Source: Asticcacaulis sp. AND118 (lineage in GTDB: Bacteria; Pseudomonadota; Alphaproteobacteria; Caulobacterales; Caulobacteraceae). Taken from it: a DNA stretch of 64,000 nucleotides. Below the pieces are notes generated by a model. It had not been told where the DNA came from. It searched no databases and saw only the letters and a list, made by a program, of their open reading frames with translations. The stretch's first letter is position 1, and each line of letters starts with the position of its first letter. This document shows positions 25,793 to 26,349 of the stretch, one piece after another. Location of the stretch: positions 62,001 through 126,000 of the forward strand of contig NZ_CP084910.1 of NCBI RefSeq assembly GCF_020535245.1, given 5' to 3'. A program made the translations under genes and the position numbers.

Positions 25793-25852
25793 GTATATCT
25801 TTTCGCTTGATTTCCATCCGGTGTGTGCGACCCTCTTCGGAGGTGAAACAGC

Positions 25853-25867
25853 GAAAGGAGGTGATCC
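25853..25867 (+). promoter_or_regulatory. Unusually long Shine-Dalgarno sequence
   Basis: GAAAGGAGGTGATCC is complementary over 15 contiguous bases to the canonical 3' end of 16S rRNA (GGATCACCTCCTTTC). Its GGAGG core ends 7 bases before an ATG. A second weaker copy, GGAGGTGAA, lies at 25839-25847. Normal ribosome sites in this window match 4-6 bases. Confidence 0.8.
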
Positions 25868-25868
25868 G

Positions 25869-25943
25869 ATGTCTGATCGTCATATGTCGGAGAGAGCGCG
25901 TAAAGGGTTTGCGATTCAGTCCTTTGGAATGGATTGCCTTTAA
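25869..25943 (+). CDS. Very short ORF (24 residues) in its own transcription unit, unknown function
   Basis: ATG 25869 to TAA 25943 encodes a 24-residue peptide starting MSDRHMSERARK and ending SFGMDCL. It is slightly basic, with one Cys, two internal Met and no membrane segment. The ribosome site matches the anti-SD over 15 bases with ideal spacing, and a perfect 13-bp terminator follows 21 bases after the stop. So a dedicated mRNA of roughly 150-200 bases is likely. It could be a small protein, a leader peptide or a dual-function small RNA; no family is recognised. Confidence 0.55.
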   Translation: MSDRHMSERARKGFAIQSFGMDCL

Positions 25944-25963
25944 GCGCTCACGGCAAGGACAAG

Positions 25964-25999
25964 AAAGAGGACCACGCGGTTTCACGTGGTCCTCTTTTT
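25964..25999 (+). terminator. Rho-independent terminator closing the short-ORF unit
   Basis: A perfect 13-bp stem, AAAGAGGACCACG (25964-25976) with CGTGGTCCTCTTT (25985-25997), has an 8-base loop and a T run at 25995-25999. It lies about 170 bases past the exporter stop and 21 bases past the short ORF, so it probably ends the latter. The A run on the other side lets it also act on minus-strand transcripts. Confidence 0.9.
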
Positions 26000-26091
26000 C
26001 ATTCAGGGCAATTGGCTAGAGTAGAGTCACCGCCCAGGGAGGGCGTAAACAAAATCCAGATCATTACGTTTCCACCCGAAAATCTAATGAT

Positions 26092-26349
26092 CTAAAAGCC
26101 CGTCGTCCTTTCACCGGTGGTTTTCTCAAAAGTCTCGACCACATCATATTCGCGATCGTCGTCCTGTCCGGCCAGTTGCGCCGCGTCGAGGTTCGCGCCG
26201 GTATCAACATCCAGCGGCGTCAGGTCGTCCTCATCGTCGATACTATCGTCTTCGCCCTCGGTATCAGCGCCGGAAGGCATCACCTCGGCATTTTCGGCGA
26301 TCTGGTTGGCGGGGTCGGTATCCGCCGGGATTTTGATGTCTTCAGCCAT
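26092..26349 (-). CDS. Small acidic protein, unknown function
   Basis: 85 residues, strongly acidic ([18 protein letters not shown] in the middle), with no cysteine, signal or membrane segment, so it is probably disordered and cytosolic. A GGAGAC ribosome site lies close before the ATG. It diverges from ftsK; the 186 bases between them should hold both promoters. The C-terminal stretch [19 protein letters not shown] may be the conserved part. No family is recognised. Confidence 0.7.

Follow-up and report, generated by a model that had tools for sequence, protein, structure and literature searches.

Between a LysE-type exporter gene and ftsK, the window (the whole 64,000-nt stretch of Asticcacaulis sp. 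AND118 DNA analyzed here) carries a short unit in which a very long Shine-Dalgarno (SD) element precedes a micro-ORF of 24 codons with its own terminator. What is so strong a ribosome-binding site doing in front of so small an ORF? A sequence-only reading of the locus had offered a strongly expressed small protein, a translation-sensing leader, or an RNA titrating 30S subunits. Our comparative analysis confirms the observation and gives it more significance than first stated. The unit represents an RNA gene that is kept across Alphaproteobacteria and is largely undescribed outside Caulobacter. Sequence comparison supports its conservation, its complementarity to 16S rRNA, two covarying helices (P0 and P1), an ORF length kept without amino-acid constraint, and the terminator. 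The unit is most likely a free-standing sRNA gene that acts as a switch operated by the 16S 3′ tail in the 30S subunit, a reading to which we give a probability of roughly 0.45. The parts of the unit are listed in Table 1.

Table 1. Positions of the parts of the unit within the window.
Feature	Position	Strand	Basis or remark
Promoter region, approximate; TTGATT ~17 nt upstream of ACCCTC	25807-25834	+	probable, from sequence conservation
Extended SD element GAAAGGAGGTGATCC	25853-25867	+	complementary to the last 15+ bases of 16S rRNA
P0 5′ strand TCCGATGT (spacer and start codon)	25865-25872	+	pairs with 25884-25891; covariation, 113 deduplicated units
Micro-ORF, 24 codons, MSDRHMSERARKGFAIQSFGMDCL plus TAA	25869-25943	+	TAA at 25941-25943; length conserved, amino acids not
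P1 5′ strand (GTC...TGTCG, codons 4-7)	25879-25889	+	pairs with 25951-25960 in the minimum-energy fold
P0 3′ strand ATGTCGGA, inside the ORF	25884-25891	+	shared with P1
Inner stems of the ORF/3′UTR rod: GAGCGC/GCGCTC, TAAAG/CTTTA, GCGATTCA/TGGATTGC	25894-25949	+	fold of the window only
P1 3′ strand (CGGCA..GAC), directly before the terminator	25951-25960	+	class-wide covariation, window fold
Intrinsic terminator, 13-bp perfect stem and U-tract	25964-25999	+	sequence, fold

The unit aligns over its full length (model positions 1-159) with RF01867, the Rfam family of the Caulobacter sRNA CC2171. The match spans 25845-25994 and scores 37.6 bits, below the gathering cut-off of 75, with E-values of 2.9e-5 (8 kb searched) and 3.5e-6 (whole genome); it is the only match in the genome. 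The two share the 5′ element CAAC..GAAAGGAGGUGAUCC..UGUCU..GUCAU, the position of P1 and the terminator, whereas codons 3-5 and P1 have diverged in the window (GAUCGUC instead of CAUUGUC). Rfam describes the Caulobacter part of the family only and, in the part of the entry drawn on here, gives no ORF, 16S pairing or function. CC2171 presumably goes back to Landt et al. 2008, and no paper on a wider related family was found in the literature searched. The unit had also been said to escape gene callers; Pfam and NCBIfam scans of four of the peptides indeed returned no family, the relationship to a named Rfam family notwithstanding.

Searches with RF01867, which are independent of the SD pattern, gave matches in 119 of 149 Caulobacteraceae genomes and in 85 of the 385 Alphaproteobacteria sampled, while a scan for the SD pattern was positive in 78 of these 385. 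Within the phylum sample the pattern was found in Alphaproteobacteria only, the reversed pattern gave 0 hits, and the family was not seen in other Pseudomonadota. When public genomes were scanned for the element together with a start codon, at least 120 loci resulted, and among those listed are Sphingomonas, Novosphingobium, Erythrobacter, Dinoroseobacter, Bosea, Ancylobacter, Bradyrhizobium, Methylobacterium, Azospirillum, Roseococcus and others. Below its cut-off, but with E-values of 1e-5 to 1e-9, the RF01867 model additionally recognizes the Sphingomonadales, Rhodobacterales, Bradyrhizobium and Rhizobiaceae types, and no other Rfam family competes at a similar score for any of the four, so that these clade types were treated as one family. 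Judged by these matches, the window unit is a divergent relative of RF01867, and CC2171 is the described part of a class-wide alphaproteobacterial family whose members are usually single-copy, free-standing and equipped with their own terminator.

In one Caulobacteraceae copy the unit is interrupted by an insertion of ~90 bases that contains inverted repeats, and in another member a +1 and a −1 shift in the ORF cancel, restoring the downstream frame. The motif also occurs in six viral-contig records, most of which resemble bacterial family members and are perhaps host sequence at prophage borders; one of them has a 71-aa ORF of another kind behind the same SD.

Two forms of the unit occur in the genus of the window: the Caulobacter-like type I (MSHCQMPQ...) and type II, the form of the window (MSNRHRPKTADKG... 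in relatives). Among 25 genomes of the genus, type II is found in six and type I in four, with one genome harboring both, and in the majority neither type is convincingly present. The two forms are recognizably related, as the type II model R1 finds the type I copies at an E-value of 5e-12; RF01867 scores the latter at up to 70.7 bits. Two subtypes in a single genus, with one genome carrying both, point to duplication or transfer followed by divergence. In all six type II genomes the unit adjoins ftsK, and LysE is found on the opposite side wherever the fetched flank shows it. In two further genomes of the genus, LysE is directly followed by the ftsK upstream region, without the unit. These empty sites and the patchy presence indicate that, old as the family is, occupancy of this junction by the unit is lineage-specific. 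Between the unit and ftsK, the minus strand of the window holds an acidic 85-aa ORF (26092-26349), which is also found in several type II relatives.

The 3′ end of 16S rRNA, which is absent from the window's own assembly, reads GGCTGGATCACCTCCTTTCT in two other genomes of the genus, and GAAAGGAGGTGATCC pairs with it at 15/15 bases plus a G·U at the next base. In line with the original claim, a single base separates the element from the ATG at 25869-25871. A scan of the 4.05-Mb genome showed that GAAAGGAGGTGATCC has no other exact copy, all other sites having at least two mismatches; the reversed-pattern control gave 0 sites, and ~0.008 sites are expected by chance (2 × 4.05e6 / 4^15). The second element noticed upstream, GGAGGTGAA at 25839-25847, is present in the window but is not conserved, as its counterpart in the other five type II genomes of the genus is AGGTTTAAC or AGGTTCAAC; further upstream, TTTTCGCTTGATTTCC..TGTGCGAC is mostly kept in these genomes. 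The 15-nt complementarity to 16S rRNA, in contrast, is retained throughout the class, and most of the 247 catalogued units have the element itself, with a constant spacing to the start codon in all but a few; this catalogue was built by pattern, which makes the constant spacing partly a matter of construction, but it is also seen in units retrieved with RF01867 alone.

The predicted duplex with the 16S tail amounts to −31.5 kcal/mol for the window and −35.2 kcal/mol for the MSHC type, compared to −13.4 kcal/mol for an ordinary SD. Such a duplex could itself be the function, if a short and abundant RNA held or slowed 30S subunits and thereby lowered initiation elsewhere, with P0 and P1 merely stabilizing it. 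Class-wide retention of the 15-nt match and an unconstrained peptide sequence would suit such a 30S decoy, but it has no need of the conserved ORF length, the stop codon or the covariation of P0 and P1 described below, and a single gene copy would have to be expressed at very high abundance to titrate 30S subunits. We therefore consider the decoy rather unlikely, and return to the ribosome-operated switch.

Free-energy folds predict a moderate accessibility of the SD (~0.3), with no clear difference from shuffled sequences. In Rhodobacterales the mean predicted probability of the SD being unpaired is 0.02, with a CACCTCC-type segment on the 3′ side covering it. Eight Rhodobacterales units carry such a segment, e.g., CCCACCTCC or CGCCTCCTT, which is complementary to their own SD and hides it in the predicted folds. 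The accessibility figures thus indicate that an open toehold is not universal in silico.

The start site is the place of the first covarying helix. In its general form, P0 pairs the six-base spacer and the start codon (GAUCC-N-AUG/GUG) with a segment inside the ORF, which in the commonest form is CUGGAUC, identical in its letters to 16S rRNA. Across 113 units remaining after removal of similar ORFs, the duplex with the unit's own partner has a mean of −8.67 kcal/mol, compared to −7.75 kcal/mol for permuted partners (0/2000 as low), −6.36 kcal/mol for shuffled ORFs and −6.55 kcal/mol for the region after the stop codon. Where N is A, the opposite base is U in 55/67 units; where N is G, it is C in 25/28, and where N is T, it is A in 4/5, the rest being mostly unpaired; as the best duplex was chosen for each unit, the permutation test rather than these counts is the evidence for P0. 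In Rhodobacterales, P0 does not rise above shuffled sequences by the duplex measure.

The second helix, P1, joins codons 2-8 to a 3′ strand abutting the terminator throughout the class. In the commonest form, codons 2-5 (UCUCAUUGUC) pair with GACAAUGGA directly before the terminator, and compensated changes such as CAAUGUC/GACAUUG, CAUAGUU/GACUAUG and CAUCGC/GCGAUG are found among others. In 69 sequences lacking the commonest strand, 67% of cells are paired, compared to a mean of 57% for shuffled partners (maximum of 500: 61%) and 34-49% for slid partners. As the middle part of the diverse MSHC set does not align, P1 was not recovered by RNAalifold from its plain MAFFT alignment, and the strands were anchored separately instead. 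The corresponding long-range helix of RF01867, CAUUGUC/GACAAUG, is clear and covaries in the family, whereas in the window it is reduced to GUC/GAC plus UGUCG/CGGCA, a short and interrupted helix of 3 + 5 bp. Both helices claim positions 25885-25889 in the window (P1 partner 25951-25955), so that by predicted pairing they are mutually exclusive there; in other clades they might coexist as a pseudoknot instead of switching. A covarying helix at the ribosome-binding site that excludes a second helix is what a 30S-triggered switch calls for, and this is the predicted arrangement, with the exclusivity referring to the window.

The window RNA folds more stably than 200 dinucleotide shuffles (z-score −4.8), an effect due for the most part to the terminator and the long ORF/3′UTR stem. 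The terminator stem AAAGAGGACCACG/CGTGGTCCTCTTT (13 bp, 25964-25976/25985-25997) is followed by T's and, like the 24-codon ORF in front of it, is as the sequence-only reading had described. Both the SD and the terminator are kept in relatives throughout the class, with terminator scores of 44.5 versus 18.5 for shuffled sequences and 95.5% of the terminators exceeding the 95th percentile of the shuffled ones.

A free-standing RNA with a terminator whose 3′ strand is hidden by P1 in the folded state would also be compatible with a dual-function sRNA, in which the 3′ strand or another segment pairs with mRNA targets and is exposed or stabilized under the control of micro-ORF translation; comparable cases are known from S. 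meliloti, e.g., rnTrpL (PMC10117765). The P1 3′ strand varies between clades together with its 5′ partner, though, unlike a conserved target seed, which makes this explanation doubtful compared to a switch worked by the ribosome.

Whether the peptide could be the product can be read from the ORF itself. The micro-ORFs usually comprise 14-36 codons across the family and are close to constant in length within clades: 18.1 codons (sd 0.3) in 41 Sphingomonadales, 18.0 (sd 0) in 20 Rhodobacterales, 14.0 (sd 0) in 13 Bradyrhizobium and 23.0 (sd 2.4) in 93 units of the MSHC type, compared to 31.6 (sd 25.6) in shuffled sequence. Within clades a frame with its stop at a fixed position is maintained, and TAA, TAG and TGA are all in use. 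A small-protein gene with a peptide of 14-36 aa as product and a strong SD for high expression would account for both the constant length and the varied stop codons. Frame-preserving indels in the MSHC group (34% in the ORF versus 15% after the stop) point in the same direction, in a test blurred by alignment noise and non-independent pairs. A premature-stop test gave P ~0.05 in Sphingomonadales and ~0.10 in Rhodobacterales and is weak, and the zero in-frame stops of the MSHC groups follow from how these groups were formed.

The amino acids tell against such a protein. From codon 7 to the end, pN/pS is 0.9-1.3 in the larger clade groups, equal to the wrong frames, and 88 MSHC-type sequences together give 1.05; in the small type II group (5 sequences) the value of 0.64 cannot be told apart from that of frame +1 (0.60). 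Conservation of codons 2-6 lies largely at the nucleotide level, and in recurrent motifs, e.g., TW, the codons themselves are fixed (ACC in 57/59), as expected of an RNA constraint. The method is able to detect protein selection, as seen in a derivative in Azospirillum-like genomes, where the ORF has been extended to 55-59 aa and includes a hydrophobic, signal-like stretch (MSHGASPVVAALFGLAALLTAGIANAEC...) and where the same measure gives 0.53, indicating purifying selection. A similar 55-aa ORF occurs separately from this set, and a GGAGCARCC (EQP-) segment recurs near the ORF end at eight loci of distant lineages; the latter may be an RNA motif, since overall pN/pS there is 1.0. SEP1 of S. 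meliloti (23 aa, with the highest translation efficiency) was considered as a Rhizobiaceae member and dropped, its pI of 4.18 appearing incompatible with the Rhizobiaceae peptides by eye. On this evidence ORF length and stop position are kept while the amino acids are not: the check on synonymous versus non-synonymous change speaks against the peptide, and the strongly expressed small protein of the original proposal is very unlikely. Selection for translation but not for the peptide is unusual for a class-wide RNA gene.

The proposed leader, in which the terminator would be read through under translation stress to control a downstream gene as in the S. meliloti duf1127 leader, is scarcely credible despite its similarly translation-sensitive architecture (PMC12218461), since no downstream gene is common to the clades over ~160 loci and the next gene in the window, at 26092-26349, lies on the minus strand.

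This leaves 30S sensing or titration as the best fit among the original proposals, in so far as the 15-nt complementarity is class-wide and the helices at the start site covary; its function, like transcription of the unit, 30S binding and displacement of P0, we infer from the sequence. The conserved 16S docking site, together with a peptide sequence that is hardly relevant, indicates that the unit is probably a ribosome-triggered RNA switch rather than a small-protein gene, and we favor a ribosome-operated RNA over the latter with moderate confidence. When no ribosome is bound, the spacer and start codon (GAUCC-N-AUG) would be paired with the ORF segment that imitates the 16S tail (P0), leaving GAAAGGAGGUG outside the helix and available as a toehold. 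A 30S subunit would dock at GAAAGGAGGUG, and its 16S tail could then displace P0, because GAUCC is also complementary to 16S rRNA; the predicted energies in the window are −31.5 kcal/mol for the 16S duplex and −10.0 kcal/mol for the P0 hairpin. The micro-ORF would now be initiated, and between ribosomes the freed ORF segment, together with codons 2-8, would pair with the 3′ strand to form P1. Selection would act on the docking of the ribosome and its passage over a fixed short distance, with the peptide being unimportant. The output may be 30S titration, a 3′ strand that is presented or hidden, or an RNA stability that changes with the supply of free ribosomes. The dual pairing of GAUCC, with P0 and with 16S rRNA, would explain its near-constancy throughout the class, where N and the start codon change in step with the ORF segment. 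Details of the mechanism differ between clades according to the predicted folds, Rhodobacterales having a covered SD and a weak P0.

How does such an RNA compare with known systems? Caulobacter has SD sites in only about a quarter of its genes, and in the part of the C. crescentus ribosome profiling study drawn on here ncRNAs are reported to be untranslated apart from two earlier predictions (PMC4117421). The duf1127 uORF leader of S. meliloti is likened to the unit by description rather than by sequence: its micro-ORF starts 30 nt from the transcription start, its ribosome-binding site and first codons can self-fold, and the RNA rather than the peptide matters in sensing translation impairment or ribosome shortage, whereas it attenuates a downstream gene and the window unit is free-standing (PMC12218461). 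The extended SD of rpsU in Flavobacteriales is likewise unusually long and tied to the 30S state (bS21-free ribosomes), but belongs to a normal ribosomal-protein gene in another phylum, and the portion of that report used here describes no P0/P1 or micro-ORF (PMC9976891). CrfA and SisA-D of Caulobacter are alphaproteobacterial sRNAs that also use G/A-rich or anti-SD sequence (PMC12559287). SisA-D carry the anti-SD UUUCCUCCCU, which is bound by CrfA, and have no match to UGAUCC, whereas the window element pairs with 16S rRNA over 15 nt including UGAUCC; a role as sponge for these sRNAs was discarded, as it leaves the UGAUCC part unexplained.

A further parallel is found in synthetic toehold switches, which follow the same logic, with a toehold left open, a start codon covered by a helix, and a trigger RNA that acts by strand displacement; the literature searched yielded no natural example. 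Tentatively, the family could be a class-wide natural toehold switch, the RNA carrying both a complement of the 16S tail and a 16S imitation that covers the start, with its state reporting the 30S supply or the bS21-free state. In contrast to the synthetic designs, such a switch would be natural and its proposed trigger would be the 16S tail itself, and, if the 30S-triggered model is true, these bacteria possess a dedicated RNA for the direct readout of ribosome supply.
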